Positions 7,382 through 49,167 of a stretch of DNA of 64,000 nt are shown here, piece after piece. The position numbers and the translations under genes were made by a program. Numbering within the stretch: the stretch's first letter is position 1; each line of letters starts with the position of its first letter. The stretch comes from Maribacter vaceletii (lineage in GTDB: Bacteria > Bacteroidota > Bacteroidia > Flavobacteriales > Flavobacteriaceae): positions 186,001 to 250,000 of the forward strand of contig NZ_RBIQ01000007.1 in NCBI RefSeq assembly GCF_003634105.1, written 5' to 3'. The notes beneath the pieces are model-generated. The model worked only from the letters and a program-made list of their open reading frames with translations. It made no database searches and was not told the origin of the DNA.

Positions 7382-7476
7382 TTACTCGATAATCGAGATT
7401 TAAATGCTCCGAGGCTTGCCTCGAAATCAAAATTAGTTTCCAAATAAATGCCTTGCGGGATTGCCCCAAGGTAGTT
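7382..7476 (-). repeat. 95-bp dispersed palindromic repeat, copy 1
   Basis: One of three near-identical 95-bp elements, the others at 44855-44949 and 49073-49167. This copy is inverted relative to them on the map. Read on the minus strand it starts 9 bases after the maeB stop with AACTACCTTGGGGCAATCCC and ends with CTCGATTATCGAGTAA. It holds three hairpins: CCTTG...CAAGG, CGAGGC-AA-GCCTCG, and CTCGAT-T-ATCGAG. It occupies almost the whole gap between maeB and ruvA. Confidence 0.9.
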
Positions 7477-7484
7477 TACTCTAT

Positions 7485-9779
7485 TTATTCTACTTGTTTT
7501 GCTTGTTTTCTTTTCTCTCTTTCCTGAGCGTCTATTACAGTAACTGCTGTCATATTTACAATCTCATCTACACTAGCTCCAAGTTGCACAATATGAACTG
7601 CTTTTTTTAAACCAACTACAATTGGGCCTATAGAATCTGCACCATTAAGCTCTTTTAATAACTTATACGTAATGTTTGCGGATTCTAAGTTTGGGAAAAT
7701 TAGCGTGTTTACTTTTTTTCCAGCTAATTTTGAAAATGGAAATTTGCTTTCTAACAACTCCTTATTTAGTGCAAAATCAGTTTGAATTTCTCCATCTACA
7801 ATTAAATCTGGATTAGATTGATGCAGCATACTAACAGCCTCTTTTACTTTTTTAGCTTTTGGATTAACAGAAGACCCAAAGTTTGCATAGGAAAGCATTG
7901 CAATTACTGGAGTAAAACCAAATGTAGTTGCTACGTTAGCTGTCATTTGTGTAATTTCTGCAAGTTCTTCTGCGTTTGGATCTATGTTTATAGAGGTATC
8001 TGCTAAAAACATTGGCCCTCTTTTTGTATCCATAATATGTACAGTAGATACTCTTTTAACATTAGCCGCTCTACCAATTATCTCAAAAATAGGTTTTACA
8101 ACAGAAGGGTATGCACGTGAATAGCCTGTAACCATCCCATCTGCATCTCCTACTACAACCATCATAGAGCCATAATACGTACGTTCTCTCATTTTTCTTA
8201 GAGCCCCATACATACCTACACCATTTCGCTGTCTTTTCTCAAAATAAGTTTTAGCATAAAGCTCTCTTTTTTCTTGAGCTTCATCTAGTTTTGGGTCAAT
8301 TATTTCTATATCAGCATCAAACTCTAATTCCTTTTTCAGCTCATTAATAATTTCTTTTCTTCCCAATAAAATTGGAATAGCTATTCCTTCATCATAAGAA
8401 ATTTGGGCTGCTTTTAAAACATCTAAATGTTCTGCTTCAGCAAAAACAATTCGCTTAGGATTTCTTCTAGCACGATCATGCAATAATCTTACTATTTTAT
8501 TATCACTTCCAGAACGTTGTAAAAGCTCTTCTCTATAACGATCCCAATCTTCTATTGGTTCTCTAGCAACTCCACTTTCTATTGCTGCTTTTGCTACTGC
8601 TGGTGGTATTTCGGAAATTAATCTTGGATCAAAAGGTTTTGGAATTATATAATCCTTACCAAAAGCTAATCGTGTTTTTCCATAAGCAATATTTACTTGC
8701 TCTGGAACAGGTTCTTTTGTTAAATCTGCCAACGCTTTTACAGCAGCCATTTTCATAGCCTCATTAATCTTAGTTGCCCTAACATCTAAAGCTCCTCTAA
8801 AAATAAAAGGAAAGCCTAGCACATTATTTACTTGGTTAGGATGGTCTGATCTACCGGTTGCCATAACCACATCTTCCCTTGTTCTACAAGCTAAATCATA
8901 CCCTATTTCTGGATTTGGATTTGCCATTGCAAAAACTATAGGATTCTTTGCCATAGAAAGCAACATTTTAGGATCTACTATATCTGCTATAGAAAGACCA
9001 ACAAAAACATCTGCACCTACCATTGCTTCTGTTAACGTATCTATTTTACGGTCCGATGCAAACTCTAACTTTTCTTTTGTTAAATTCTCACGGTCTTTAC
9101 GAATTACCCCTTTACTATCTAACATTACAATATTCTCTGCACTTGCACCAAAAGCCTTATACAATCTTGTACAAGACACTGCTGCCGCTCCAGCACCACT
9201 TACAACAATACGAGCCTCTTCAATTTTTCTTCCTGTAAGCTCTAATGCATTTAATAAAGCTGCTGCAGAAATAATTGCAGTTCCATGCTGATCATCATGC
9301 ATTACAGGAATATCTAACTCCTCTTTTAATCTTCTCTCTATCTCAAAAGCTTCTGGAGCTTTTATATCCTCTAAATTTATTCCTCCAAATGTAGGTGCTA
9401 TATTTTTTACGGTTTGTATAAACTCCTCCACATTTTCGGTATCTACTTCAATATCAAAAACATCAATATCTGCAAAAATCTTAAAAAGCAATCCTTTCCC
9501 TTCCATTACTGGTTTGGATGCTTCTGGACCAATGTTACCCAACCCTAAAACTGCAGTACCGTTAGATATTACTGCTACTAAATTTCCTTTTGCTGTATAT
9601 TTATAAGCATTATTCTTATCCTTCTCTATTTCTAAACATGGTTCTGCAACACCAGGAGAATACGCAAGTGCTAAATCTCTCTGGGTTGTATAAGGTTTTG
9701 TAGGAACAACTTTTATTTTACCAGGAATTGGCTTTGCATGATATATTAATGCTTCTCTTCTATTTCTTTGTTTACTCAT
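7485..9779 (-). CDS. maeB: NADP-dependent malic enzyme with C-terminal phosphotransacetylase-like domain
   Basis: 764 residues, the usual size of the MaeB-type fused enzyme, which oxidatively decarboxylates malate to pyruvate with NADP+ and so supplies NADPH and links the TCA cycle to pyruvate. Residues 1-420 are the malic enzyme part: catalytic-region text AKPIPGKIKVVPTKPY and LALAYSPGVAEPC near the start, the metal-site segment PVMHDDQHGTA near residue 160, and the dinucleotide fold IVVSGAGAAAVSC near residue 190. Residues 430-760 resemble phosphate acetyltransferase (RIVFAEAEHLDVLKAAQ, TGYSRAYPSV, ADTSINIDPNAEELAEI). In this family the C-terminal domain is thought to be regulatory, binding acetyl-CoA, rather than catalytic. 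A -7-like element TAAATTTG lies at 9798-9805. Repeat copy 1 follows the stop codon. Confidence 0.95.
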   Translation of the reverse strand: MSKQRNRREALIYHAKPIPGKIKVVPTKPYTTQRDLALAYSPGVAEPCLEIEKDKNNAYKYTAKGNLVAVISNGTAVLGLGNIGPEASKPVMEGKGLLFKIFADIDVFDIEVDTENVEEFIQTVKNIAPTFGGINLEDIKAPEAFEIERRLKEELDIPVMHDDQHGTAIISAAALLNALELTGRKIEEARIVVSGAGAAAVSCTRLYKAFGASAENIVMLDSKGVIRKDRENLTKEKLEFASDRKIDTLTEAMVGADVFVGLSIADIVDPKMLLSMAKNPIVFAMANPNPEIGYDLACRTREDVVMATGRSDHPNQVNNVLGFPFIFRGALDVRATKINEAMKMAAVKALADLTKEPVPEQVNIAYGKTRLAFGKDYIIPKPFDPRLISEIPPAVAKAAIESGVAREPIEDWDRYREELLQRSGSDNKIVRLLHDRARRNPKRIVFAEAEHLDVLKAAQISYDEGIAIPILLGRKEIINELKKELEFDADIEIIDPKLDEAQEKRELYAKTYFEKRQRNGVGMYGALRKMRERTYYGSMMVVVGDADGMVTGYSRAYPSVVKPIFEIIGRAANVKRVSTVHIMDTKRGPMFLADTSINIDPNAEELAEITQMTANVATTFGFTPVIAMLSYANFGSSVNPKAKKVKEAVSMLHQSNPDLIVDGEIQTDFALNKELLESKFPFSKLAGKKVNTLIFPNLESANITYKLLKELNGADSIGPIVVGLKKAVHIVQLGASVDEIVNMTAVTVIDAQEREKRKQAKQVE

Positions 9780-9797
9780 ACCTAAAGTTTAGAACTA

Positions 9798-9805
9798 CAA
9801 ATTTA
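9798..9805 (-). promoter_or_regulatory. Putative -7 promoter element for maeB
   Basis: On the minus strand TAAATTTG matches the Bacteroidota -7 consensus TAnnTTTG and lies 18 bases before the maeB ATG. No clear -33 TTTG is seen about 20 bases upstream, so this is a partial match only. Confidence 0.45.
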
Positions 9806-9892
9806 AGTGTATTCTTTTATTTTTAATGCTTAAATATTAGTTAAGTATATTAATTTTTTTGAAAACGAGTAATTACAAGTTAGCCCCTGTAA

Positions 9893-10816
9893 TTACTTAA
9901 GGAATTTTATATTTCTTTGAAGCCCTGAAAATTTAGTTCTTTTCACTGCCGATTTTTGAAAGACTTTTTTAAACACATCCTCTGTAACTTCTTCCCAGTC
10001 CTTTTTATTCATACTTAGCAATTCAGGATGCGGATTAAATAATGGTTCTGAATGCGGTTTTGAAAATCTATTCCAAGGACAAACATCTTGACAAACATCG
10101 CACCCAAACATCCAATCATCCATTTTGTTCTGAAACTCTGATGGCATTTCATTCTTCAACTCTATTGTTAAGTACGATATACACTTACTACCATCTACTT
10201 TATATGGCTCTACTATTGCCTGTGTTGGGCAAGCATCTATACATGCCGTACAGGTACCGCAATGATCAGTTACTTTAGCATCATAAGCCAAATCAATATC
10301 TAAAATTAGTTCTGCTATAAAATAAAAAGAACCTACTTGCTGGGTTAACAAATTACTATGCTTCCCAATCCAACCTAAACCACTTTTTGCTGCCCAAGCT
10401 TTATCCAAAACAGGAGCAGAATCTACAAAAGCTCTACCCCCAACTTCTCCTATTTCTGTGTTAATAAAATTCTGAAGTTCCTTAAGTTTAGATTTTATTA
10501 CATGATGGTAATCGTTACCATACGCATATTTAGAAATTTTATAGGAATTTGTATTTTGCTGTTCTTCTGGAAAGTAATTGAGCAATAAAGAAACTACAGA
10601 TTTGGAACCTTCTACTAATAAACGTGGATCTAAACGTTTATCAAAATGGTTTTCCATGTATTGCATTTGCCCATGTCTATTCTCTTGCAACCATTTTTCT
10701 AACCGAGGAGCTTCTTCTTCTAAAAAATCTGCCTTAGATATACCGCAAGAAAGAAAACCAAGGCGCTTGGCTTCTTCTTTAATTAATGCACTATGCTTTT
10801 CTTTTATATCTATCAA
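9893..10816 (-). CDS. queG: Epoxyqueuosine reductase QueG
   Basis: 307 residues. QueG carries out the last step of queuosine synthesis, reducing epoxyqueuosine in the wobble position of tRNA; it is a cytoplasmic cobalamin and iron-sulfur enzyme related to reductive dehalogenases. The two 4Fe-4S motifs are visible: [16 protein letters not shown] near residue 187 and [12 protein letters not shown] near residue 237. The N-terminal half carries the family text [20 protein letters not shown] and [14 protein letters not shown], and [20 protein letters not shown] lies near the middle. The start appears to be TTG at 10816, since no in-frame ATG occurs upstream before the ruvB stop and the protein aligns with the family from there. 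It follows ruvB by 18 bases and is probably in the same transcript. Confidence 0.94.
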
Positions 10817-10834
10817 AAGTGCTATTACTAATTT

Positions 10835-11857
10835 CTAAAACAATCCTCCTTGAATATTTCCTTTTATTCTACCTAGATGTTTATAGGCTTGCTCGGTAAC
10901 TTCTCTTCCTCTTGGAGTACGCATTATAAAACCTTGTTGTATTAAAAAAGGTTCATACACTTCCTCTATTGTTTCAGGGCTTTCAGAAACTGCCGTTGCA
11001 ATAGTAGAAATTCCTACCGGACCACCTTTAAATTTATCAATAATGGTAGTTAGTATTTTATTATCCATTTCATCTAAACCATGTGCATCTACATTTAATG
11101 CTTTTAGGCTAAACTTAGAAATAGCAATATCTATACTACCATTACCTTTAATTTGCGCAAAATCTCTTACCCTTCTTAAAAGGGAATTACATATTCTTGG
11201 TGTACCTCTACTTCTGCCTGCAATTTCTATAGCTGCTTCATTAGTTATAGGTACGTTTAAAATTTCTGAACTTCGTTCTACGATGGTAGATAATAACTCT
11301 GTAGAGTAATATTGCAACCTACTTTGAATTCCAAAACGAGCACGCATAGGTGCTGTAAGTAAACCAGACCTTGTAGTTGCCCCTATTAAAGTAAACGGAT
11401 TTAAGTTTATTTGTACTGTTCGTGCATTTGGCCCAGTTTCAATCATAATATCAATCTTATAATCTTCCATTGCAGAATACAAGTATTCTTCTACAATTGG
11501 GCTTAATCTATGAATTTCATCAATAAACAAGACATCTCGTTCTTCTAAATTTGTTAACAAACCAGCTAAATCTCCTGGTTTATCTAACACAGGACCCGAT
11601 GTAATTTTTATACCCACACCAAGTTCATTTGCTAAAATATGAGCCAAAGTTGTTTTTCCTAATCCCGGAGGACCATGAAATAAAGTATGATCCAACGCTT
11701 CTCCTCTTTGGTTAGCTGCTTCCACAAAAATCTTAAGATTCTCTAGAACCTGTTCCTGCCCAGTAAAATCATTAAAAGTAACCGGCCTTAAAGCTCTTTC
11801 TATATCAAACTCTTCCGAAGAAAAATTACCAGTAGTTGGATCCAAATTTTCGTTCAT
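10835..11857 (-). CDS. ruvB: Holliday junction branch migration ATPase RuvB
   Basis: 340 residues from the chosen ATG. RuvB is the hexameric AAA+ motor that drives branch migration on RuvA-bound junctions. Walker A (GPPGLGKTT) is near residue 62, Walker B with its DEIHR box near residue 112, the sensor 1 segment GATTRSG near residue 159, and the winged-helix C-terminus contains [10 protein letters not shown] and [18 protein letters not shown]. The frame can be extended six codons to a TTG at 11875, but that extension runs through the TATCTTTG promoter element, and flavobacterial RuvB proteins begin MNENLDP. I therefore prefer the ATG at 11857. queG follows 18 bases downstream. Confidence 0.96.
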
Positions 11858-11863
11858 AGTAAA

Positions 11864-11871
11864 CAAAGATA
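11864..11871 (-). promoter_or_regulatory. Putative -7 promoter element for ruvB-queG
   Basis: TATCTTTG on the minus strand matches TAnnTTTG and ends six bases before the ruvB ATG. If used, the transcript would have an extremely short or no leader. It also argues against the longer TTG-started reading of ruvB. Confidence 0.5.
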
Positions 11872-11977
11872 GCAAAAATCAAATGCTAATAACTCAATAG
11901 AATTAACAACTATCATAACATTCTAATTTTTTAAATAACCATAAAAAAGTATTTAATTATTATCGTAAATTCATTTC

Positions 11978-14239
11978 ATGAAAAATATACAATACTCTAA
12001 AGGCGTAACGCAATACCTTCCTTTTTTTTATATTATTTGGGCAGATGATTTATTATCTGTTTCTGAGATTAATGTTGTGAAACATGCTTTAGAAGAAGAT
12101 ACAACGCTTGAGGACCAAGAAAAAGAACTACTACTTTCTTGGTTAAAAAATGAAAACTCTCTTAAAGACAAAGAAGTTAAAATTTGGAAGCAAATTATTG
12201 ATGCATCTAAAATTAAAATAATAGAAAATGAGTCTTATCCACTAACTTTTTTTAGTCAAAAAGTAACTGCTTCCTACTTTTCCGATAGCTCATTTAACGA
12301 AAGTCTTAAAAAAATAGAGGTTAATCTAGGCATGCAACCCAACCACTACAATCATTTATTTGAGGTTAAAATAAGTACTAACAAAACATCTAAAGAATAT
12401 GACAGTGCAATAATAGATTCTATTTTAAAAGGCAAACAAGCCAAAGTGGTTGATACTTTTAGAAAAGATTTATCTGCTACAATATTTAACTGGGAAACTA
12501 TTCGCGATAAAAGCACACACAGAAAAAAAGTTTTAGAACAGGTAAAACATCTTGCAAATAAAGGGTATGGAGCAATGGCATACCCTAGAGTTTATAATGG
12601 AACCGAAGACATGGAAGGTTACGCTGCAATTTTTGAACACATGATGTATGTAGATGGCAGTATGGCCATTAAATTTGGTGTTCAATTTGGATTATTTGGC
12701 GGAAGTATTCAAAAACTTGGCACAAAAAAGCATCATGATTTATATCTAAAAAACACAGGAGAAGCATCTTTATTAGGGTGTTTTGCAATGACAGAAACTG
12801 GACATGGCTCTAATGTAAGAGGCGTAAAAACAACTGCAACGTATGACAAAAAATCAAACCAGATAACTATACACACCCCTGGTAAAATTGACAACAAAGA
12901 ATATATAGGAAATGCTTTAGATTCGAAAATGGCTTCTGTTTTTGCACAACTTATTGTAAATGGAAAAAATGAAGGCGTGCATGCTATTCTTGTTCCTCTA
13001 AGAGATAAAAACCACAACTTACTACCAGGAATAAATGTGGTTGACAATGGGTACAAATTAGGGCTTAATGGTGTAGACAATGGCAAAATATGGTTTAACC
13101 AAGTTGCCGTACCAAAAGACAATTTATTAGACAAATATGGCTCTATTACAAATGACGGTTCTTATTATTCTAAGATTGAAAATCCTAATAAAAGATTTTT
13201 TACCATGCTTGGAACCCTTGTTGGCGGAAGAATTTGTGTTGCCAGAGCTGGTTTAGGTGGTGCAAAAATGGCATTAACAATTGCTATAAAACATGCTTTA
13301 CAAAGAAGGCAGTTTAATGACAATAAAAAAATGCAGGAAGATTTGTTGATGGATTATCCATCACACCAGTTACGATTAATCCCTTTAGTAGCTAAAGCGT
13401 ATGTATATCATTTTACTTTAGACAAAATGATGTATGAGTATTGTAATGAAGCTTCTGACAAAAGAAAAGTAGAAACACAAGCTGCAGGTTTAAAATCGAT
13501 TATAACATGGTATGCCAATGCTACTATCCAAGAATGTAGAGAAGCTTGTGGAGGAAAAGGATACCTAATAGAGAACAGAATAGCCGATTTAAAGAATGAT
13601 GTGGACATTTTCACAACTTTTGAAGGAGATAACACAGTTTTACTACAATTAGCAGCAAAAGGGGTGTTATCCGATTTTAAGGCAGAGTTTAATAGTGCTG
13701 GTTTTTTATCTGTTTTAAAACTATTAAGTAACCAAATAAATGATAGCGTTACTACTGCTAATCCTTTGTACACTAACAAAGTAGATAAAGATCATTTATA
13801 TGATCCAGAATTTCATAAAAATGCTCTAAACTATAGAACAAGAAGATTAACGTATTCTATTGCAAAACGCATACAAGGGTATATTAAAAAAGGCGTACCA
13901 TCTTATCAAGCTTTTTTAAAAGTACAAACACATTTAATAAGCTTAGGAAAAGCCTATAGCATAGCAAAAGCTTACGAAGCTTACTATACTTCTATTAGTA
14001 TAATTAAAGATGAAAAATATGCAGACCTATTTAAAAAACTAGGTGTTTTATATGCGTTACATGAAATAAGAATTGATGCAAGTTGGTATTTAGAACAAAG
14101 CTATATAGGAGCCACAAAATCAAAGGCAATACGACAACGCGTGGAAAGACTTAGTACAGAGTTAAGACCTCATATAAATACCCTTATAGATGGTTTTGGA
14201 ATACCAGAACATTGCTTAACTGCTCCGATTAGTAAATAA
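11978..14239 (+). CDS. Acyl-CoA oxidase / long acyl-CoA dehydrogenase-like flavoprotein
   Basis: 753 residues, much longer than ordinary acyl-CoA dehydrogenases (about 380) and close to the acyl-CoA oxidase family, which introduces the trans-2 double bond into acyl-CoA with FAD and passes electrons to oxygen. Diagnostic text includes CFAMTETGHGSNVRGVKTTA near residue 268, the FAD-binding region before it (GSMAIKFGVQFGLFGGSIQK), RICVARAGLGGAKMALTIAI near residue 421 and the C-terminal-domain signature CREACGGKGYLIENRI near residue 523, followed by FTTFEGDNTVLLQLAAKGVL. The C-terminal 180 residues match the extra oxidase domain. It is monocistronic, facing the GIN-domain gene. Whether it acts as an oxidase or a dehydrogenase cannot be settled from sequence. 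It would feed beta-oxidation. Confidence 0.85.
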   Translation: MKNIQYSKGVTQYLPFFYIIWADDLLSVSEINVVKHALEEDTTLEDQEKELLLSWLKNENSLKDKEVKIWKQIIDASKIKIIENESYPLTFFSQKVTASYFSDSSFNESLKKIEVNLGMQPNHYNHLFEVKISTNKTSKEYDSAIIDSILKGKQAKVVDTFRKDLSATIFNWETIRDKSTHRKKVLEQVKHLANKGYGAMAYPRVYNGTEDMEGYAAIFEHMMYVDGSMAIKFGVQFGLFGGSIQKLGTKKHHDLYLKNTGEASLLGCFAMTETGHGSNVRGVKTTATYDKKSNQITIHTPGKIDNKEYIGNALDSKMASVFAQLIVNGKNEGVHAILVPLRDKNHNLLPGINVVDNGYKLGLNGVDNGKIWFNQVAVPKDNLLDKYGSITNDGSYYSKIENPNKRFFTMLGTLVGGRICVARAGLGGAKMALTIAIKHALQRRQFNDNKKMQEDLLMDYPSHQLRLIPLVAKAYVYHFTLDKMMYEYCNEASDKRKVETQAAGLKSIITWYANATIQECREACGGKGYLIENRIADLKNDVDIFTTFEGDNTVLLQLAAKGVLSDFKAEFNSAGFLSVLKLLSNQINDSVTTANPLYTNKVDKDHLYDPEFHKNALNYRTRRLTYSIAKRIQGYIKKGVPSYQAFLKVQTHLISLGKAYSIAKAYEAYYTSISIIKDEKYADLFKKLGVLYALHEIRIDASWYLEQSYIGATKSKAIRQRVERLSTELRPHINTLIDGFGIPEHCLTAPISK

Positions 14240-14252
14240 AATCGGAGCAGTT
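14218..14252. terminator. Hairpin overlapping the acyl-CoA oxidase stop codon
   Basis: A 12-bp perfect stem, AACTGCTCCGAT (14218-14229) with ATCGGAGCAGTT (14241-14252), encloses the stop codon of the upstream gene. It lies between two convergent genes. The following bases are not a clean T-run on either strand, so it is a weaker terminator candidate, or a 3' end stabiliser. Confidence 0.6.
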
Positions 14253-14274
14253 ACAATTAGGTTATTGCATAAAA

Positions 14275-15099
14275 TTAATCCTTTTTTTTATGCAATTCTG
14301 AGGTATCTAAAAAATCTAATAGTACCATTTTACCATCTCCATAAAAATAAGTCTTAGAAGACCCGGATGAAGATAATTCTATAGTATCTGATGCATAAAC
14401 TCTTGCACTAGGAGATTCAGATAAAGTGACCGAAACAGCACTTGCCTGAAGCTTCTCTGCTTTTAAGTTAGAAGACCCTAAAAGTTTTACTTTCAAAACA
14501 TCTGTAGTACCATCCATTTTAGCAGAAGATGTATCTGTCATAAAAATTGAATTTGTAGAACTTGTAGAATAAATAGAAACATCTATACGGTCTTTTAAAT
14601 TTATTTGTAGTGAATCACTATCTATGTTAAAATTACCAGAACTATTGTCCTCCATATTAATATCTACATAAGGAGATTGTGCATTTAGTTCTAATTTAGA
14701 ATTTTCATAAGTATTTACATAAAGTTCTTCAGACTCTACAATATCCTCCATTCGTATTCTTCCTCCTCTCATAACAATAGCATCCAATTCTACAAAACTT
14801 ACAATAATATCTAATTTCTTTTTTCTTGTGATTTTATAAAAAGAACTAATTTTAAGTGTTCCGTTTACTACTCGAAATTTTAAAACATCAATTAAATTAT
14901 CATCAGCTGTAATGCTATACCCTTCAACATCTCCTCTTTTTAAAGTAATATCTAAGTCATCATTTAATTCTATTTCTGTAAACGAGGGTAGGTCTTGGAC
15001 AACATCAATTACATTCTTATTCCCTTTTATTTTAGGTTTACGTTGTGCATAGGTATAAGCACAAAAAAATAATAATGTGCCAATTAATATTCTTTTCAT
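14275..15099 (-). CDS. Exported GIN-domain (DUF2807) protein
   Basis: 274 residues with a clear signal peptide (MKRILIGTLLFFCAYTYAQ). The mature protein has the repetitive beta-helix-like pattern of the putative auto-transporter adhesin head GIN domain: LPSFTEIELNDDLDITLKRG, NTYENSKLELNAQSPYVDIN and a tail of short strands separated by Ser, Asp and Gly. The family is abundant in Bacteroidota; its function is not established and it is thought to be a periplasmic or surface protein. It has no same-strand partner: the cox operon terminator lies downstream of a different transcript, and the acyl-CoA oxidase faces it. No lipobox is seen. Confidence 0.8.
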   Translation of the reverse strand: MKRILIGTLLFFCAYTYAQRKPKIKGNKNVIDVVQDLPSFTEIELNDDLDITLKRGDVEGYSITADDNLIDVLKFRVVNGTLKISSFYKITRKKKLDIIVSFVELDAIVMRGGRIRMEDIVESEELYVNTYENSKLELNAQSPYVDINMEDNSSGNFNIDSDSLQINLKDRIDVSIYSTSSTNSIFMTDTSSAKMDGTTDVLKVKLLGSSNLKAEKLQASAVSVTLSESPSARVYASDTIELSSSGSSKTYFYGDGKMVLLDFLDTSELHKKKD

Positions 15100-15171
15100 T
15101 ATAGATAAATTTTAGCGTTAATGGTAACTGTAAGATATTACAAAAAAGCCATATACATTTAAAATAAGTCC

Positions 15172-15204
15172 AAAAAAAAAGTCTAACTATAAAAGTTAGA
15201 CTTT
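15172..15204 (-). terminator. Terminator of the act-cox operon
   Basis: Stem AAAGTCTAAC (15178-15187) with GTTAGACTTT (15195-15204) and a seven-base loop. Read on the minus strand the stem is followed by an uninterrupted run of T, a typical intrinsic terminator 23 bases after the cox1 stop. Confidence 0.85.
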
Positions 15205-15226
15205 ACTATTTTTAATACAAAACTAA

Positions 15227-17053: not shown

Positions 17054-17097
17054 AATCGTACTTTATTTTTTTTATTAATTTATTATCTTACTTGTAA

Positions 17098-18156: not shown

Positions 18157-18184
18157 TGTATGATTTAATATTATACCTTACTAA

Positions 18185-19519: not shown

Positions 19520-19534
19520 ATTCTTATCTATGTA

Positions 19535-20095: not shown

Positions 20096-20097
20096 AT

Positions 20098-20628: not shown

Positions 20629-20632
20629 ATTC

Positions 20633-37770: not shown

Positions 37771-37800
37771 CTAATGTTTTACTCTTAAACAAAAGCGCAA

Positions 37801-37837: not shown

Positions 37838-37853
37838 TAATAAATAGAAGAAT

Positions 37854-38150
37854 TTATAAATACTCGTTTAAAATACCAATAAGTGTATTGGCATCTTGCT
37901 CACCACTTTGTCGCCAAACCATTTCTCCTTTTTTGTATATCATTAAAGTAGGCAAGCCTTTTACTCTTAAAGCCTGAGCCAGCTCTTTATTCTTATCTAC
38001 ATCAATTTTTATAACCTTTCCCTTATCTCCTAAGGCAGCGGCCACATCTCTTAAAATAGCATGCATGGCAGTAGATTGATCATTCCATTCTGCGTAAAAA
38101 TCAAGCAGTACGGGAACGTTTAAATCTATTAATTCACCAAATTTAGACAT
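37854..38150 (-). CDS. Thioredoxin-fold protein without active-site cysteines
   Basis: 98 residues, the length of thioredoxin, with the thioredoxin pattern VPVLLDFYAEW near residue 13, VIKIDVDKNKELAQALRVKG, the cis-proline segment GLPTLMIYKKGEMVWRQSGE and a C-terminal helix. Where thioredoxins have WCGPC the sequence reads WNDQSTAM, and no cysteine occurs anywhere in the protein. It therefore cannot do dithiol-disulfide exchange and may act as a binding or chaperone-like module. No signal peptide is present, so it is cytoplasmic. It lies beside a metallophosphoesterase on the same strand (92 bases apart) and close to polA. Confidence 0.85.
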   Translation of the reverse strand: MSKFGELIDLNVPVLLDFYAEWNDQSTAMHAILRDVAAALGDKGKVIKIDVDKNKELAQALRVKGLPTLMIYKKGEMVWRQSGEQDANTLIGILNEYL

Positions 38151-38242
38151 ATGTTTAACTTTGCATTATTAGCCAAATGTAATAAAAAATGTTAAAATAC
38201 AGCTAATACATAGGCATTTGCAAGCTACACAATAGGTTAAAT

Positions 38243-39472: not shown

Positions 39473-39779
39473 TCTTATTATATTTTTTTTGCAAATGTAT
39501 TTGATTAGAATACTCTTTATTGCTATTTTACCTTTTATTTAACGCTTAACAATTCTGTTGTTTTAATACGCAAACTCACCAATACCACATTACAAAACTT
39601 TATTAGAAAGCAACATAGCTTCATTTTTTTGTCGAAAACTCTTTCCTTTCCTTAAAAAACACACCTCTGTTTCACCTTCATTATTCCTAAACTAGATATA
39701 AAATCTTATTTTAAAAACACAATATTTTATACCTTACCACATTAATTCGTAGTTTTGAAATTCTACAACAATAACACTA
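39473..39779. other. 307-bp divergent intergenic region (metallophosphoesterase / polA)
   Basis: AT-rich sequence between divergent genes. The only signal I can support is the -7 element of polA at 39750-39757. No hairpin with a T-run, no open reading frame of note and no repeat was seen. Confidence 0.5.
39750..39757 (+). promoter_or_regulatory. Putative -7 promoter element for polA
   Basis: TAGTTTTG matches TAnnTTTG and lies 22 bases before the polA ATG. A weak -33 (TTTT at 39725-39728) sits about 21 bases upstream. Confidence 0.5.
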
Positions 39780-42620: not shown

Positions 42621-42728
42621 TACATATAAAACATTAGAGGGTTACATCATTTCATCGAAAAATTGTAGGGTTTGCAAAGCAAAGTGTTAAATTTACAAAC
42701 AACTATTTAACCACTAACCAACATTTTC

Positions 42729-44363
42729 ATGAAGAAAAATATCTTTTTTCTAACCTTTATTTCTCTATTATCTTTATACATAGCAAAAGCACAAAGCACA
42801 GATATAGACAAAGAACCAATTGAAATAAGTTACGTAAGATTACCTGACAAACCAGTTTTAAATGATGCCAACCGAACTTTTTCGGTTTTATCCTTGAACT
42901 CACAAGTACTTACCCAATCTTTACCCGAATTATATTTTGAAAGTGAAATAAAATTATCTGGTTTCACTAAATTAAATAATGATGCTTTTATAGCCATTCA
43001 AAGCAAATTAATAGATGTTACTTTAATTAGTAATGATATAAATTCTACTCCAAAGAGCAGAACCGACGATGATGGAAAAGTTACCCGCTGGACTGAGTAT
43101 AAAACAATTATTAAATACAGAACAGAAGGCAGTGTTACAGTTACCTCTGCAGACCAATCTATAAATGAAGTTTTTACTTTTAATGGAAACAAAACAAAAA
43201 GCAGTAAAGTATTTGATAATTATGAAAGTGCCAGAGCTTTTAGAAACAGCAACTCTATAAAAACATTACGCATAAACTTTATTAAAAGCGTAATAAGCAC
43301 TGTTAACTCTAGAATATCAAGTCTTTTTGGTTATAAAGAAATAAAATCCAAAAAAAACTTATGGGTTTTGGACTCTAAAAAGCACCCAGAGTACGAGAAC
43401 CATAAAGCTAATTTTAAAATAGTGGAAAAAGCTTTTTCTAAAATGAAAAGCTATGAATCCTTAGATAATTTAAAAATAGAGGTGAAACCCGCCCTGGAGT
43501 ACTACAAAAGCATTCTCTCTAAATATGAAGGCAAAGACAGAAAATCTAAAAAACTACGATATGCTTCACTTTATAATTTAGGGTGGATAAATTATTATTT
43601 AGACAATCCAGATGAAACTGCTACTTATGGCGCAAAAATAATTGAAAATGATTATGATAAATCCGATGGAAAGTCTTTAGACAAAAAAGCTATAAAACTG
43701 AGAGATGTATTTGCAACAAACAAAACAGATACGCGCCATCTTAACGTTTTAACAGAAGACAAAACGGATTATTATGGAGCATCTTCTAATCAATTTATGG
43801 ATGCTAATGACCCTAACAAACCGTTTGATCCCAAAACGGATCCAGACTACTCCCTCTCTTTTGTAATAACAAACTCTGGAGATACCATACCAGGTTATAT
43901 TAACATGAAAAAAATTGACAAATTAGCTGGTATTTTAAAAACCTATGTTAAAGATCTAGAAGGCAAACCAGTACTTAGGAATTTTGGTGCTCATGAAGTA
44001 AACACTTTAGTCTTAGGAAATGGAGAAAAAAGATATACGCTACCTTTTAAAGAAGCAGATGATGCTGTAACAATGTCTAGTTTTGATAGAGCTAGCTATA
44101 AATATGTAAAGCGTATTTACGCGTCTAAAAAAATTAATCTTTATGAATATCAGTCTAGAGAATTAATCATTAAAAAGAATACTGACAAAAAAGGGTATTC
44201 CACTTCAGGCTCTGGTTGGTTAATGGCATTTAGAAAAAAACTTGGGAATTTATTAGGAGAAGACTGCCCAGAACTAAAAGAGCGTGTAAAAGAAAAAGAA
44301 TTTGAAAATAATGCTAATAGCATAATAGAGTTTATAAAAGCATATGAAAATTGCGAGAAGTAA
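42729..44363 (+). CDS. Exported protein of unknown function
   Basis: 544 residues with a clear signal peptide (MKKNIFFLTFISLLSLYIAKAQ). I do not recognise the family. Residues 30-190 look like alternating beta strands; residues 205-330 are helical and charged with a stretch resembling a single TPR-like pair (LRYASLYNLGWINYYLDNPD). The last third contains SGDTIPGYINMKKIDKLAGI, which recalls the NGDTI-x-G-x-I strand found in many unnamed Bacteroidota exported proteins; this is a weak resemblance. There is no C-terminal sorting domain and no lipobox, so a periplasmic location is likely. The tail has two cysteines (DCPEL, ENCEK). A terminator at 44391 ends the transcript. Confidence 0.7.
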   Translation: MKKNIFFLTFISLLSLYIAKAQSTDIDKEPIEISYVRLPDKPVLNDANRTFSVLSLNSQVLTQSLPELYFESEIKLSGFTKLNNDAFIAIQSKLIDVTLISNDINSTPKSRTDDDGKVTRWTEYKTIIKYRTEGSVTVTSADQSINEVFTFNGNKTKSSKVFDNYESARAFRNSNSIKTLRINFIKSVISTVNSRISSLFGYKEIKSKKNLWVLDSKKHPEYENHKANFKIVEKAFSKMKSYESLDNLKIEVKPALEYYKSILSKYEGKDRKSKKLRYASLYNLGWINYYLDNPDETATYGAKIIENDYDKSDGKSLDKKAIKLRDVFATNKTDTRHLNVLTEDKTDYYGASSNQFMDANDPNKPFDPKTDPDYSLSFVITNSGDTIPGYINMKKIDKLAGILKTYVKDLEGKPVLRNFGAHEVNTLVLGNGEKRYTLPFKEADDAVTMSSFDRASYKYVKRIYASKKINLYEYQSRELIIKKNTDKKGYSTSGSGWLMAFRKKLGNLLGEDCPELKERVKEKEFENNANSIIEFIKAYENCEK

Positions 44364-44390
44364 ATAACCTTGAGTTAGTTTAAAAAAGTA

Positions 44391-44418
44391 AAAATAGCCA
44401 TAATATGGCTATTTTTTT
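44391..44418 (+). terminator. Terminator after the exported unknown protein
   Basis: Stem AAAATAGCCAT (44391-44401) with ATGGCTATTTT (44405-44415), three-base loop, followed by TTTT: a standard intrinsic terminator 28 bases after the stop codon. Confidence 0.88.
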
Positions 44419-44519
44419 ATAACAAAAGTTAAATGTCACTTAAAAAATTACCCTATAACTAATGTAACTATCCAGAATTTGTAACTTCAATGTTATAAAT
44501 TCACACGATTATTTTTACA

Positions 44520-44855
44520 ATGCGACTATACTTAATCCTAACAACTATTTTTTTGTGTATTTACTTTAATATAAATGCGCAGCAAAATAAAGAGGAGCGT
44601 ACACAAAAAATTACTCAAACTATAAAAGTATTTCCTAATCCAGCAACGAATGTTGTAAATATATTGGGTTTGCATAACTCTAGTAATGCAAATATTAAAG
44701 TATTAGACACCTATGGAAATATTGTATTAAAACATTCTTGGCAAATAAAAAACAACGCAATAAACATCCCCGTTTCTTCACTTGCTTCTGGCGTATACAT
44801 AATTATTATACATTCCAACAAAGAACAAGTACAAGCAAAAATTTTTAAAAAGTAA
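44520..44855 (+). CDS. Small exported protein consisting mainly of a T9SS type A sorting domain
   Basis: 111 residues. A signal peptide (MRLYLILTTIFLCIYFNINA) is followed by only about ten polar residues and then a typical type A C-terminal sorting domain: IKVFPNPATNVVNILGL, IKVLDTYGNIVLKHSW, INIPVSSLASGVYIIII, ending in AKIFKK. Such domains direct cargo through the type IX system (SprA is encoded at the left of this window) and are normally removed and found behind large effector regions. Here no cargo region exists. It could be a remnant of a larger gene, a decoy or a small surface protein. The 95-bp repeat begins at the last base of its stop codon. Confidence 0.8.
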   Translation: MRLYLILTTIFLCIYFNINAQQNKEERTQKITQTIKVFPNPATNVVNILGLHNSSNANIKVLDTYGNIVLKHSWQIKNNAINIPVSSLASGVYIIIIHSNKEQVQAKIFKK

Positions 44856-44949
44856 ACTAACTCGGGGCAAGCCCACGAGGCATTTATTAGGAAACTAATT
44901 TTGATTTCGAAGCAAGCCTCGGAGCAGTAAAATCTCGATTATCGAGTAA
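44855..44949 (+). repeat. 95-bp dispersed palindromic repeat, copy 2
   Basis: Begins at the last base of the stop codon of the sorting-domain gene (AACTAACTCGGGGCAAGCCC) and ends CTCGATTATCGAGTAA. The central hairpin here has an A-C mismatch (CGAAGC-AA-GCCTCG). It is followed after six bases by an ordinary terminator. Same orientation as copy 3, opposite on the map to copy 1. Confidence 0.9.
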
Positions 44950-44955
44950 TTAAAA

Positions 44956-44983
44956 AAACCGTTAAGAAAATTCTTAACGGTTT
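44956..44983. terminator. Bidirectional terminator
   Basis: Stem AAACCGTTAAGAA (44956-44968) with TTCTTAACGGTTT (44971-44983), 13 bp, two-base loop, with flanking A-rich and T-rich ends. It separates the convergent sorting-domain gene and the lipoprotein gene. Confidence 0.85.
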
Positions 44984-45008
44984 ATTATATATTATAAAAT
45001 GAGCGTAC

Positions 45009-45515
45009 TTATTTTCTATTAAATATAAGCTCGCCTTTAGTATTAAAATTAGGTAAATCTAAGCCTTCTGCATCTACTGTCATTACATCTGCCTCTATAG
45101 AAGCTTTTGCACTAATTTCTTCTCCGTTTTTATCTTTGAATTTTAGTACTCCGTCTACATAAGTGTACATTGTTGTTTCAATATCTTTTTCACTTGGACA
45201 ATCAACTATTAATCCTGTAGGACCAGCATTGAACTCTAGATAATCAATTGCATTCTCAGTTACTAAAGTTGCATCTTCCTTAAACTCAAAAGTTACAATA
45301 GCACAATCTTCTTCAATAAGTTTCTCTAAAGCATCCTCTGCTAAATTTAAATATGTACCTGCAGCTTCTTCATCTACATTAAACTCTACAAGTTCCCATT
45401 TTCCTACGAGAGCATCTTTACCCGTTAATTCATCTAATTTATCAGAAATTGCATCTTTTGAACAAGAAGAAAAAAGAACACCTATTGCAATTATAGTTAA
45501 AGATAATTTTTTCAT
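45009..45515 (-). CDS. Small lipocalin-like lipoprotein
   Basis: 168 residues. The lipoprotein signal is MKKLSLTIIAIGVLFSSCSK, with Cys at about residue 19. After a short helical stretch (AISDKLDELTGKDALV) comes GKWELVEFNVDEEAAG, the first strand typical of the lipocalin-like (DUF4923/lipocalin_4-type) domains that are common in Bacteroidota, then FEFKEDATLVTENAI and VDGVLKFKDKNGEEI strands. The protein is strongly acidic. The function is unknown; ligand binding in the periplasm or on the outer membrane is a family-level guess. It is monocistronic and divergent from rplM. Confidence 0.7.
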   Translation of the reverse strand: MKKLSLTIIAIGVLFSSCSKDAISDKLDELTGKDALVGKWELVEFNVDEEAAGTYLNLAEDALEKLIEEDCAIVTFEFKEDATLVTENAIDYLEFNAGPTGLIVDCPSEKDIETTMYTYVDGVLKFKDKNGEEISAKASIEADVMTVDAEGLDLPNFNTKGELIFNRK

Positions 45516-45689
45516 TGGTTTGGTATTTGGTTATTTATTTTACTGGTAACTAGAACAAAACGTAAACAAATAAACAATATTGCACTGGCTAAACAATATA
45601 AAAACAACAACAAACTGTATATAAAATAAAGGAAAATCGATAATTTTACAATCTTGAATAAAAAAATAAAAAATAATAAGAAACAACCA

Positions 45690-45720
45690 TTTGTATTTCA
45701 ACTTAATAGTTGTACATTTG
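45690..45720 (+). promoter_or_regulatory. Promoter of rplM-rpsI
   Basis: TTTG (45690-45693), 19-base spacer, TACATTTG (45713-45720): an exact match to the Bacteroidota housekeeping promoter at both boxes. Transcription would start near 45727, leaving a leader of roughly 40 bases. Confidence 0.8.
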
Positions 45721-45722
45721 CA

Positions 45723-45735
45723 GCCCTCTTAAAGG
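45723..45735 (+). promoter_or_regulatory. Small hairpin at the predicted 5' end of the rplM transcript
   Basis: CCCT-CTTAA-AGGG lies directly after the promoter -7 box. If transcription starts at or before it, the transcript would begin with a short stem. Ribosomal-protein leaders often carry such structures, but this stem is only four pairs. Confidence 0.3.
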
Positions 45736-45768
45736 GAAAGAAGTGTATAATAGAAAAAAATAGCAGTA

Positions 45769-46224
45769 GTGGATACATTAAGTTATAAGACTGTTTCAGC
45801 AAATAGAACAACCGTAGACAAGCAATGGGTATTGGTTGATGCTGAAGGAGAAACGTTAGGGCGACTTGCTTCTAAAGTAGCAAAAATACTTAGAGGAAAG
45901 CATAAAACAAATTACACTCCTCATGTTGATTGTGGAGATAACGTAGTTATTATTAATGCAGAAAAAATTACCCTTTCTGGTAACAAATGGGATACTAAAT
46001 CTTATAGTCGTTATACAGAATATCCTGGAGGTCAACGTCATACATCTGTAAAAGATATGTTATCTAAGACTCCTGAGCGTATTGTGGAAAAGGCTGTTAA
46101 AGGAATGCTTCCAAAAACTAGGTTGGGTGCTGAGTTATTCAGAAACCTTAAAGTAAACGTAGGTCCTAATCACGGACAAGAAGCACAAAAACCAACTGTT
46201 ATTAATTTAAACGAATTTAAATAA
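45769..46224 (+). CDS. rplM: 50S ribosomal protein L13
   Basis: 151 residues. L13 is an early-assembling large-subunit protein. It begins [20 protein letters not shown] with family text [39 protein letters not shown] and [20 protein letters not shown]. The start codon is GTG at 45769; related flavobacterial L13 proteins begin at the same residue. Its stop codon TAA shares its last base with the ATG of rpsI, so the two are translationally coupled. It is driven by the strong promoter at 45690. Confidence 0.97.
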
Positions 46225-46610
46225 TGGAGATAATTCATAAAATTGGCAGAAGAAAAACAGCTGTTGCTCGTGTTTATCTTTCTGAAGGAACAGGAAATAT
46301 TACTATAAACTCTAGAGATTTAAAAGAATATTTTCCAACTGCAACTTTACAATACAAAATTAAGCAAGCTTTTGCATTAACTGACACTGTTGATAGTTAT
46401 GATGTTAAAGCAAATGTTTATGGTGGTGGTAACACTGGCCAAGCTGAAGCTATTCGTTTAGCTTTATCTAGAGCTATGTGCGAAGTAGACGCTGAAAACA
46501 GATTATCTCTTAAACCAGAAGGTCTTTTAACAAGAGACCCAAGAATGGTAGAACGTAAGAAATTTGGTCAGAAGAAAGCACGTAAGAAATTCCAGTTCTC
46601 TAAACGTTAA
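46224..46610 (+). CDS. rpsI: 30S ribosomal protein S9
   Basis: 128 residues. S9 has a long C-terminal tail that reaches the P-site tRNA; here it ends in [12 protein letters not shown], with the arginine at the end that contacts the tRNA anticodon. N-terminal text is [20 protein letters not shown], followed by [20 protein letters not shown] and [20 protein letters not shown]. The ATG overlaps the rplM stop by one base. A terminator follows at 46623. Confidence 0.97.
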
Positions 46611-46622
46611 TACAGAATCACC

Positions 46623-46650
46623 AGGGTATTCTTTCGAATACCCTTTTTTA
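46623..46650 (+). terminator. Terminator of rplM-rpsI
   Basis: Stem AGGGTATTC (46623-46631) with GAATACCCT (46636-46644), loop TTTC, followed by TTTTTT. Confidence 0.9.
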
Positions 46651-46659
46651 TATTTTATA

Positions 46660-46830
46660 ACTAGTTCATTGAAAGTCTCAAAAAAGAGACACTTAAAAAT
46701 CTTATTACCATTTCTAATAGTAATAAGTAAGGGTAGGTTTTTAAAATCGCCCATTTAGTTTAGCATCTAAATAGTAGAGGCTTGCATGTATATGCATACC
46801 ACTCTAGTATTGCTAATTCATAAGAACGTA
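46660..46830 (+). promoter_or_regulatory. Structured region upstream of rpsB (possible ribosomal leader)
   Basis: Three hairpins occur between the rpsI terminator and rpsB: GTCTC-AAAAAA-GAGAC (46674-46689), CTTATTAC...GTAATAAG (about 46702-46728), and AGAG...TGCAT-GTAT-ATGCA...CTCT (about 46777-46805). The last is just upstream of the rpsB ATG. No promoter matching TAnnTTTG was found in this stretch, so the transcript start is unknown. Confidence 0.45.
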
Positions 46831-46843
46831 AACTAAAACAAAA

Positions 46844-47914
46844 ATGGCGAAAGTCGAAGTAAAACAATTATTAGAAGCAGGTGTACACTTTGGACACCTT
46901 ACAAGAAAATGGAATCCAAACATGGCTCCTTACATCTACATGGAGCGTAATGGAATTCACGTAATTAACCTTTACAAAACGGTTGCAAAATTAGACGAAA
47001 CTAACGAAGCGCTACATAAAATAGCTGCATCTGGAAGAAAAATCTTATTTGTAGCAACAAAAAAACAAGCTAAAGACATAGTTGCTGACAAAGTATCTAA
47101 GGTAAACATGCCTTATATTACAGAAAGATGGCCAGGCGGAATGTTAACAAACTTTGTTACTATTCGTAAAGCTGTTAAAAAAATGGCTTCTATTGATCGT
47201 ATGAAGAAAGATGGTACCTTCATGACTCTTTCTAAAAAAGAACGTTTACAAGTAGACCGTTTAAGAGCTAAATTAGAAAAGAACTTAGGTTCTATTTCTG
47301 AAATGACTCGTTTACCAGGCGCTCTTTTTATTGTAGATACAATGAGAGAACACATTGCTGTTAAAGAAGCTCAAAAATTGAATATTCCAATTTTTGCTAT
47401 GGTAGATACAAATTGTGACCCAAGAGATATTGATTATGTAGTACCAGCAAATGATGATGCATCTAAATCTATAGACATTATTATGGAGCAAGTTACTGCT
47501 GCAATTGCAGAAGGATTAGCAGAACGTAAATCTAGCAAGCAAGAAGCACCAAAGAAAGATACTCCTAAAAAAGAAGCAGCTCCAAAAGCAGAAGCTCCTA
47601 AGAAAGAAGAAGCTAAGGCCGAAGCACCTGCTGCTCCAGTAGCTAAAGCTGCTCCTGCAAAAGCAGACGATTTAACAAAAGTAGAAGGAATTGGACCTAA
47701 AGCTGCTGAAGCTTTAGTGAACGCTGGATTTGTTACTTTCGCTGACTTAGCTAAAGGTGATGCTGAAAAGATTAAAACAATCTTAACTGAAGCAAGCTCA
47801 AGAATGGCTCATTTAGATCCAACTTCTTGGCCAAAGCAAGCACAAATGGCTGCTGATGGTAAGTGGGACGAACTTAAAGAATGGCAAGATAACGTAAAAG
47901 GTGGTGTAGAATAA
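46844..47914 (+). CDS. rpsB: 30S ribosomal protein S2 with C-terminal helix-hairpin-helix extension
   Basis: 356 residues, about 110 more than typical bacterial S2. The S2 domain is residues 1-230 (LLEAGVHFGHLTRKWNPNMA, ERWPGGMLTNFVTIRKAVKK, GALFIVDTMREHIAVKEAQK, PIFAMVDTNCDPRDIDYVVP). Residues 231-272 form a flexible Lys/Ala/Pro/Glu linker. The last 85 residues are a separate domain with DDLTKVEGIGPKAAEALVNA, a helix-hairpin-helix signature, ending in a tryptophan-rich helical part (WPKQAQMAADGKWDELKEWQ). The first part of this domain parallels the ActC tail in this window. tsf follows 98 bases downstream, the usual rpsB-tsf order. Confidence 0.96.
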   Translation: MAKVEVKQLLEAGVHFGHLTRKWNPNMAPYIYMERNGIHVINLYKTVAKLDETNEALHKIAASGRKILFVATKKQAKDIVADKVSKVNMPYITERWPGGMLTNFVTIRKAVKKMASIDRMKKDGTFMTLSKKERLQVDRLRAKLEKNLGSISEMTRLPGALFIVDTMREHIAVKEAQKLNIPIFAMVDTNCDPRDIDYVVPANDDASKSIDIIMEQVTAAIAEGLAERKSSKQEAPKKDTPKKEAAPKAEAPKKEEAKAEAPAAPVAKAAPAKADDLTKVEGIGPKAAEALVNAGFVTFADLAKGDAEKIKTILTEASSRMAHLDPTSWPKQAQMAADGKWDELKEWQDNVKGGVE

Positions 47915-48012
47915 ATTTATAGATACATCAAAATATCTATAATTTAACATTACCCTAAAACTGGATACAATAATTGTGTCTTATTTTACATAATCAAAAA
48001 AAATAAAAGAAA

Positions 48013-48969
48013 ATGGCTAAAATTACCGCCGCAGAAGTAAATAAATTAAGAAAAGCTACAGGTGCAGGAATGATGGACTGCAAAAAAGCCTTAGTAGAAG
48101 CAGAAGGAGATTTTGACAAAGCAATTGAAGTTCTTCGTAAAAAAGGACAAAAAGTTGCTGCTAAAAGAGCAGATAGAGATTCATCTGAAGGTGCTGCAGT
48201 TTCTAAAGTAAATGCAGATAACACTGTTGGTGTTGCAATTGTACTAGGTTGTGAAACTGACTTTGTTGGTAAAAACGAAAACTTTCTTGCTTTAGCAAAT
48301 GAACTTGCTGACAAAGCAATAAATTTTGACAACAAAGAAGATTTTTTAGCTTCTGATTTCGGAGGAATGACAGTTGCTGATAAATTGATAGAACAAACAG
48401 GTGTAATTGGCGAAAAATTAGAAATTAACTCTTTCGAGAAGTTAGAAGCTCCTTATGTTGGCACTTATGTTCACATTAACAAAATTGCTGCTTTAGTTGG
48501 TTTAACTTCTAAGAACGAAGTAGTTGCTAAAGATGTTGCTATGCAAGTAGCTTCTATGGGCGCAACAACTTTATCTTATAAGGATTTTGACCCTGCATAC
48601 ATTGCTTCTGAAACCGAAGCTAGAATTGCAGTTATAGAAAAAGATAATATTGAATTAGGTCGTTTAGGTAAAACTCTTAAAAACGTACCTCAATATATTT
48701 CTATGGCACAATTAACTGATGAAGCCTTAGCTAAAGCTGAAGAAGCTGCAAAAGCAGAACTTACCGCAGAAGGAAAACCAGAGAAAATCTGGGATAAAAT
48801 TCTTCCTGGTAAAATGCAAAGATTTATTGCAGATAACACTACTTTAGATCAAGAACAATGTTTATTAGATCAGAACTTTATTAAGGATGAGAAAATAAAT
48901 GTTGCTAAATATGTTGCTTCTGCTGGAGATTTATCTGTAACAAGCTTTAAGCGTGTTGCTTTAGGATAA
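48013..48969 (+). CDS. tsf: Elongation factor Ts
   Basis: 318 residues. EF-Ts exchanges GDP for GTP on EF-Tu. The N-terminal UBA-like domain begins AKITAAEVNKLRKATGAGMM and includes DCKKALVEAEGDFDKAIEVL; the core domain contains GVAIVLGCETDFVGKNENFL near residue 76. The length is slightly over E. coli's 283 owing to an extended dimerisation region. It sits behind rpsB and is followed by two successive terminators. Confidence 0.97.
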   Translation: MAKITAAEVNKLRKATGAGMMDCKKALVEAEGDFDKAIEVLRKKGQKVAAKRADRDSSEGAAVSKVNADNTVGVAIVLGCETDFVGKNENFLALANELADKAINFDNKEDFLASDFGGMTVADKLIEQTGVIGEKLEINSFEKLEAPYVGTYVHINKIAALVGLTSKNEVVAKDVAMQVASMGATTLSYKDFDPAYIASETEARIAVIEKDNIELGRLGKTLKNVPQYISMAQLTDEALAKAEEAAKAELTAEGKPEKIWDKILPGKMQRFIADNTTLDQEQCLLDQNFIKDEKINVAKYVASAGDLSVTSFKRVALG

Positions 48970-48996
48970 GTAAACCACAACAATATATCAATTATT

Positions 48997-49023
48997 AAAA
49001 CCGTCTCTAGAGACGGTTTTTTT
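48997..49023 (+). terminator. Terminator after tsf
   Basis: Perfect palindrome AAAACCGTCTCT (48997-49008) / AGAGACGGTTTT (49009-49020), with a T-run of seven through 49023. Confidence 0.88.
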
Positions 49024-49030
49024 ATGCAAA

Positions 49031-49060
49031 AAAAATGCTGCTTTATAAAGCAGCATTTTT
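49031..49060. terminator. Second, bidirectional terminator after tsf
   Basis: A 30-base perfect palindrome: AAAAATGCTGCTTTA (49031-49045) and TAAAGCAGCATTTTT (49046-49060). It follows the first terminator by seven bases and can also act on minus-strand transcripts from the M61 gene. Confidence 0.85.
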
Positions 49061-49072
49061 AATTTTTTAGTG

Positions 49073-49167
49073 AACTACCTCGGGGCAAGCCCACGAGGCA
49101 TTTATTAGGAAACTAATTTTGATTTCGAGGCAAGCCCCGGAGCTTTTAAATCTCGATTATCGAGTAA
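49073..49167 (+). repeat. 95-bp dispersed palindromic repeat, copy 3
   Basis: AACTACCTCGGGGCAAGCCC at the left and CTCGATTATCGAGTAA at the right. Here the left stem is CCTCG...CGAGG, where copy 1 has CCTTG...CAAGG. Its right end is four bases from the stop codon of the M61 peptidase gene. Confidence 0.9.

Follow-up and report, generated by a model that had tools for sequence, protein, structure and literature searches.

RESULTS

Three copies of a palindromic repeat at gene ends

The stretch of DNA analyzed here, referred to as the window, comprises 64,000 nucleotides of Maribacter vaceletii (assembly GCF_003634105.1, contig NZ_RBIQ01000007.1, positions 186,001 to 250,000) and contains three copies of a repeat of about 95 bp, the nature and mobility of which are the subject of this report. 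Copy 1 is located on the minus strand at 7381 to 7480, both AGTAAA-like end repeats included, and starts 4 nt past the stop codon of the open reading frame (ORF) 7485-9779. Copy 2 occupies 44851 to 44949 on the plus strand, and the ORF 44520-44855 terminates at the TAA within the 5' AGTAAA of this copy. Copy 3, also on the plus strand at 49069 to 49167, ends 4 nt from the stop codon of the ORF 49172-51043. A first-pass annotation of the window had claimed three near-identical copies with ends close to stop codons and with ordinary terminators beside copies 2 and 3. All of this was found again, including terminator-like sites adjoining copies 2 and 3, and the span of each copy was slightly longer than first given once the short end repeats were counted. 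That annotation had named the adjacent genes as a putative maeB (copy 1), a sorting-domain gene (copy 2), and an M61 gene (copy 3).

A search of the assembly that contains the window (G000; 3.89 Mb in 15 contigs) extended the family to at least 41 matches genome-wide, with 40 of the 76 candidates scored. These matches had 80 to 99% identity to the query, with E values from 2e-45 to 9e-18, and a chance origin is excluded. Additional places in this assembly, for instance, C1:1443778 and C1:271251, came from a search with the window itself. When 30 fetched loci from G000 were aligned, the similarity began and ended abruptly, with AGTAAACTACC.. at one boundary and ..CTCGATTATCGAGTAAA at the other, and the flanks outside were unrelated. 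The element ends AGTAAACTACC.. and ..ATTATCGAGTAAA were not inverted copies of each other, so terminal inverted repeats were absent as judged by eye. With about 95 to 100 bp, the element is too short to encode a transposase. No widely separated left and right ends occurred in loci 1 to 232, and among the ORFs within 2.5 kb of the element at 203 loci, the largest recurrent family was present at 5 loci, with its distance from the element varying. At four loci, an enzyme-like ORF family was located 33 to 107 nt from the element; it did not resemble a transposase. Rfam at the gathering score yielded only two tRNAs in the window, and lax thresholds over the element gave nothing convincing.

Empty sites and insertion target

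For the empty-site test, the joined flanks of 12 copies were searched in eight genomes of the genus, and 30 loci were fetched. Clean empty junctions were present at 6 of the 12 sites (L009, L016, L022, L023, L024, and L028). Site L028 is copy 1 of the window, which is empty in the congeners G002 and G007, reading ATAGAGTAAAAAGTT and ATAGAGTAACAAGTT. The site of copy 2 is empty in G007 (..AAAAAAGTAACCATAAAAAAG..) and that of copy 3 in G002 and G007 (..TTTTTAGCAACCGATT.. and ..TTTTTAGCAAACAATT..). Since orthologous sites in congeners are empty, the insertions are lineage specific and the repeat is mobile; the inserted unit measures about 94 bp and goes into AGTAAA-like targets. The earlier suggestion of a mobile element resembling a miniature inverted-repeat transposable element (MITE) is supported by the empty sites of all three window copies.

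Before insertion, the target consisted of one AGTAAA-like hexamer (TTTACT when read on the opposite strand), present in the relatives as AGTAAA, AGTAAC, AATAAA, AGCAAC, or similar. It is short and specific, without a variable target duplication, and the element ends in G028, a complete genome in one contig, have only TAAA in common. Near positions 474 to 494 of locus L175, two head-to-tail elements had one AGTAAA-like junction in common.

Hairpins and compensatory changes

The consensus of the G000 copies contains three palindromes, namely, CCTCGGGGCAAGCCCACGAGG with one extrahelical A (hairpin 1), CGAGGCAAGCCTCG (hairpin 2), and the terminal palindrome CTCGATTATCGAG (hairpin 3). In copy 1, hairpin 1 is at 7451 to 7471 on the minus strand, has the single extrahelical base, and is the right-end hairpin in transposase orientation, with hairpin 2 at 7410 to 7423 as the left-end hairpin; fold and covariation agreed on both. 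On the plus strand, hairpin 1 of copy 2 (44860 to 44880) and copy 3 (49078 to 49098) was assigned from sequence and covariation and was absent from the respective lowest-energy fold. Hairpin 2 of these copies (44908 to 44921 and 49126 to 49139), with one mismatch each, was assigned from sequence. The terminal palindrome, at 7385 to 7397 (minus strand), 44934 to 44946, and 49152 to 49164 (both plus strand), appeared in sequence and fold in all three copies.

When each copy was folded alone as DNA, the minimum-energy structure contained three separate hairpins in copy 1 only. In copies 2 and 3, hairpin 3 formed and the arms of hairpins 1 and 2 paired together; the z scores of the window copies were between -2.2 and -3.3. 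Of the three stems first annotated in every copy, stem 2 is perfect in copy 1 only, being CGAAGC..GCCTCG in copy 2 and CGAGGC..GCCCCG in copy 3. The paired C-G to T-A change noticed in stem 1 is real (CCTTG..CAAGG in copy 1 versus CTCG..CGAG), and relatives carry the variants CGGTGC..GCACACG in stem 1 and CGACGC..GCGTCG in stem 2.

An alignment was assembled from 142 full-length matches, which gave 129 distinct sequences and 85 after dereplication, those above 135 nt being excluded; 79 of the 85 passed the length and score filters, and 55 representative sequences were aligned. Paired stem cells made up 88.1% compared to 84.7% in shuffles and 25 to 39% in slid controls. Two-sided changes were found in 41 cells versus 16.7 in shuffles and in 12 pairs versus 8.8, a number reached by 13 of 500 shuffles. 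Compensatory changes preserve stems 1 and 2, which covary across genera, and this backs the selection for structure proposed from the window. Many of the 55 rows had been selected by the exact 21-nt right end of the element (the tail, AAATCTCGATTATCGAGTAAA), and the conservation of hairpin 3 or helix 5 in this alignment is ascertainment. Among the 30 copies from G000, whose selection did not involve the tail, hairpins 1, 2, and 3 had mean column identities of 0.949, 0.957, and 0.979, respectively, a small difference. At nine loci (L106, L139, L148, L149, L167, L182, L187, L192, and L196), the loop of hairpin 1 or 2 was lengthened by a further palindrome of the GCCTGTCTG.. type, which gives the impression of a second repeat inserted into the loop.

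Orientation with respect to replication

G028 carries 15 full-length copies, of 96 to 100% identity, of a variant whose right side differs (..GGGGTATTATACCCTTTGGCGGTGCCAATAAA). The nine plus copies were all located at 3.2 to 4.04 or 0.4 to 0.8 Mb, and the six minus copies were all at 1.8 to 3.0 Mb. The GC skew of G028, sampled at 20 places, was positive between 1.2 and 3.0 Mb, with the exception of 1.8 Mb (-0.04), and negative between 0 and 1.0 Mb and between 3.2 and 3.8 Mb; the skew at fourfold sites broadly agreed. From the strands of the copies and the GC skew, it follows that the TTTA..GTAGTTTA strand is on the G-rich, lagging-template strand in 15 of 15 full-length copies (p = 6e-5). The replichore rule was followed, by eye, by 24 of 27 other, partial matches in G028. 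In G000, 22 of 31 copies agreed with the replication strand (p = 0.03), copies 2 and 3 of the window among them; these copies were assigned by hand from sampled skew, which left 10 of the 41 unassigned. A larger composite repeat at three G028 loci (L341, L352, and L359), with the same left end followed by other palindromes (GGCCAAGCGTAAAG..), is apparently a further related family.

PMC6006769 describes IS608 and ISDra2 as targeting the lagging-strand template, and PMC7290912 describes IS605 of Halanaerobium as being without such a strand bias.

Link to a probable IS200/IS605 parent

A 21-nt left end, AAACTACCTCGGGGCAAGCCC, was present in 12 of 397 genomes of the family. At three of three places in G426, the hairpin-1 end runs straight into a reading frame ending ..YASKDVIQRYVENQGKEKEYKEVHSGQLKLF, which, judging by eye from the Y1-type motif YVENQ, would be the C terminus of a TnpA. 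An intact insertion sequence (IS) in G198 contains the left-end hairpins, an open tnpA of 151 amino acids, and a right end ..ACCTCGTATGCTTGCATCGAGGTAGTTCA. Its TnpA matched two transposases of known structure, PDB entries 2xm3 (E = 5e-18), which we take to be the ISDra2 transposase, and 2a6m (E = 7.5e-12), named the ISHp608 transposase.

The G198-type tnpA clade was present at an E value of 1e-20 or below in 19 of the 397 genomes. Among 23 of the 30 loci fetched for this clade, 20 were seen by eye to have a TTCA/TTTA end together with a right-end hairpin of the same type, the exceptions being L386, L397 (at a contig end), and L408. Upon folding, 8 of 15 right ends gave the hairpin with a single bulge that is also found at the element ends of G000 and G028 and at the G426 end. 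The G028-type element moreover retains the left-end block of the parent, ..GGGTTTAATACCCCGAGGCTTGCCTCG in some relatives versus GGGTTTAATTCCCCGCTGCTTGCAGCG in the IS. By a hand tally, the clade was more common in genomes with the exact tail (7 of 55) than in those without it (12 of 342; Fisher p = 0.009). G013 had 14 PF01797 matches, and IS200-type tnpA matches were numerous in two further genomes, G171 and G192, where they were often located at contig ends; these matches suggest that the parent clade or its relatives were active recently.

The repeat is very probably a palindrome-associated transposable element (PATE), a MITE-like derivative that consists only of the ends of an IS from the IS200/IS605 family (Y1, HUH) of Flavobacteriaceae, because terminal inverted repeats are absent, the stems covary, the full-length copies of the variant in G028 take their orientation from replication, and the right-end hairpin is that of tnpA-bearing IS in other Flavobacteriaceae. 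In the mechanism that we infer, a Y1 HUH TnpA provided in trans would bind the subterminal hairpins on the single-stranded lagging-strand template, cut both ends 3' of a TTTA, and join the excised strand behind another TTTA. Cleavage is predicted 3' of the TTTA on the strand reading TTTACTCGATAATCGAG... Since the target contains a TAA, copies would persist mostly at the 3' ends of genes, where they should cause the least harm.

Position at the 3' ends of genes

With a simple ORF caller, 15 of the 30 G000 copies were found in tandem, 10 in convergent, 3 in divergent, and 2 in undetermined gaps. The TAA of the AGTAAA was the stop codon of the upstream gene in 9 of 30 copies compared to 13 of 106 noncoding AGTAAA sites (p of about 0.008), and 23 of the 29 copies with a callable neighbor were downstream of a codirectional gene compared to 59 of 106 control sites (p of about 0.007). 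The control sites came from 364 kb of G000, and this sample includes element copies.

Both excesses would also be expected from a 3' RNA element that was co-opted by the host for mRNA stability or processing and is kept at gene ends, with its mobility being incidental. Such a role is very unlikely, since the empty sites in congeners are those of lineage-specific insertion, and since the orientation in G028 follows replication, with the nearest upstream gene in sense in only 8 of 14 copies. The excess at stop codons is real but modest, and we read it as mostly the outcome of target sequence and purifying selection. The empty site of copy 2 in G007 has AAG-TAA in the same place; the stop codon at copy 2 is therefore native.

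Candidate transposases

G000 contains one PF01797 gene, which is its single Y1 gene and of the IS200 type (L031, 1456-1929). The ends of this IS200 are TTTA/TTGGTC.. and ..GTGGTTTA, with other hairpins, and copies in G005, G013, and G047 have similar ends. Mobilization of the repeat by this resident IS200 was rejected because its ends and hairpins differ from those of the element.

A repetitive extragenic palindromic (REP) sequence or bacterial interspersed mosaic element moved by a REP-associated tyrosine transposase (RAYT, TnpA_REP), the mover first suggested for the repeat, would account for hairpins, a high copy number, and an intergenic location. It is nevertheless a highly improbable explanation: NF047646 had no match in G000, where PF01797 showed only the IS200-type gene, the hairpins on either side of the RAYT in the congener G001 are different ones (CACTAGT..ACTAGTGC), and the right end of the element is common to IS200/IS605-type tnpA genes. 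The description as a MITE-like mobile repeat is supported, and that of a RAYT as its mover is not. Two congeners have Bacteroidetes-type RAYT-like genes (L068, 1342-1857, and L069, 1243-1815) beside a gene for a tyrosine-recombinase-like protein of 359 amino acids, and that of L069 has CACTAGT..ACTAGTGC hairpins on either side, which are a separate repeat family.

The AGTAAA at both ends in G000 might point to a MITE mobilized by a DDE transposase that duplicates a 6-bp target site, but this has a negligible probability given the lack of terminal inverted repeats, the fixed target sequence, the G028 ends sharing only TAAA, and the replication-strand orientation. Readings as integron/attC, Xer, or other recombinase systems were weighed by reasoning alone and dropped.

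DISCUSSION

The evaluation of the repeat as a PATE needs to consider a number of observations that weigh against it. For the empty sites, no fetched relative had a junction at 4 of the 12 sites (L004, L014, L026, and L030; at L014, G002 and G007 hold about 65 additional bases), and the junctions at L002 and L018 were ambiguous. The strand rule was opposed by 3 of the 27 partial matches in G028 (837597, 2765395, and 3924530), likewise by an exact left end at 900812 of that genome, and by 9 of the 31 assignable G000 copies, including copy 1 of the window. The guide rule of IS608 (AATG beside TTAC) was fitted by some copies by eye and failed by the Kordia copies, and it is not claimed for the element. 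Concerning the parent, the contigs of G426 break inside the IS, PF01797 had no match in that assembly, and the near-invariant terminal palindrome CTCGATTATCGAG was not seen in the tnpA-clade loci of the parent IS.

Further points against the PATE assignment concern the transposase. The sole Y1 gene of G000 belongs to an IS200 with hairpins unlike those of the element, and the G198-type tnpA clade was not found in this assembly at an E value of 1e-20 or below. G028 and G007, both rich in the element, had no convincing PF01797 gene, two weak matches in G028 being other proteins, and PF01797 was unmatched in 7 of the 13 element-bearing genomes among 15 searched. Because the only Y1 gene of G000 is located in an IS with different ends, the simplest reading is that the mover is missing or lost in G000, the transposase having since been lost or having arrived transiently through transfer. 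A multicopy IS may also be absent from draft assemblies.

Conservation of the terminal palindrome

The 21-nt tail was exact in 55 of the 397 genomes, from 40 genera, and the reversed control gave 0. In a collection of 85,000 species, at least 112 stretches contained the tail, and all 112 listed were Flavobacteriaceae as assigned from record names; in viral contigs, a 23-nt tail was found 0 times. The tail statistics do not include L130 and L181, two loci at which the match was judged by eye to be a chance one, in frame within coding sequence. Of 136 exact tails, which include some places present in two collections, 48 were accompanied by a left half with at least 10 of 21 mismatches, no better than the control (116 of 123 control stretches). 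In the reverse test, the tail was present within 3 mismatches at 10 of 30 left-anchored places, and most others carried the other type of right end.

The exact tail stands in contrast to the TnpA-type hairpins, which are kept mainly in structure. Sequence-specific selection on the 13-bp palindrome CTCGATTATCGAG and its flanks by a factor other than the parent TnpA, such as another transposase or a host protein that binds DNA or takes part in replication, might be considered on account of the exact 21-nt end, the divergent left halves, and the palindrome being unseen in the autonomous IS, but this is a rather doubtful proposal. If it is true, CTCGATTATCGAG could have been hijacked from the host, and this PATE family could owe its reach, and its longevity without a resident transposase, to such a site.

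Relation to known elements

PATEs as a kind are already known, being defined in PMC3119063, with one described in PMC7290912. This repeat family was not found described in the open-licence literature, and a literature search by sequence string gave no match. Like the element, the PATEs of Haloquadratum walsbyi have no terminal inverted repeats, contain near-terminal palindromes, are too short for a transposase, have ends related to the IS605 type, and form several families with homogeneous expansions and strain-specific insertions (PMC3119063). They differ in having archaeal IS605-type parents, whereas the element of about 95 to 100 bp is found in Flavobacteriaceae and contains the extra near-invariant terminal palindrome.

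The IS200/IS605 family, represented by ISHp608 and ISDra2, has in common with the element the subterminal hairpins with an extrahelical base, a short and specific target, and the lagging-strand-template orientation (PMC6006769 and PMC7290912). In contrast to these IS, the element has no tnpA, and the ends of its parent are TTTA and TTCA, unlike those of IS608. The end motifs of IS608 are TTAC and TCAA. REP and REPIN sequences with their RAYTs are likewise short palindromic intergenic repeats tied to Y1-type transposases (PMC3733652 and PMC6006769). They differ in that a RAYT link was not found for the element, in which GGAG and CTAC are located, by eye, beside the hairpins and outside the canonical GTAG/GGAG foot position.

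As a PATE, the repeat would account for widespread intergenic hairpin repeats of marine Flavobacteriaceae and tie them to single-strand transposition by Y1 enzymes. The family may provide a tractable system for the spread and persistence of transposase-less elements where the cognate transposase is not found and for their accumulation at stop codons. It also calls for caution, in that covarying hairpins at the ends of genes are not necessarily RNA regulators.

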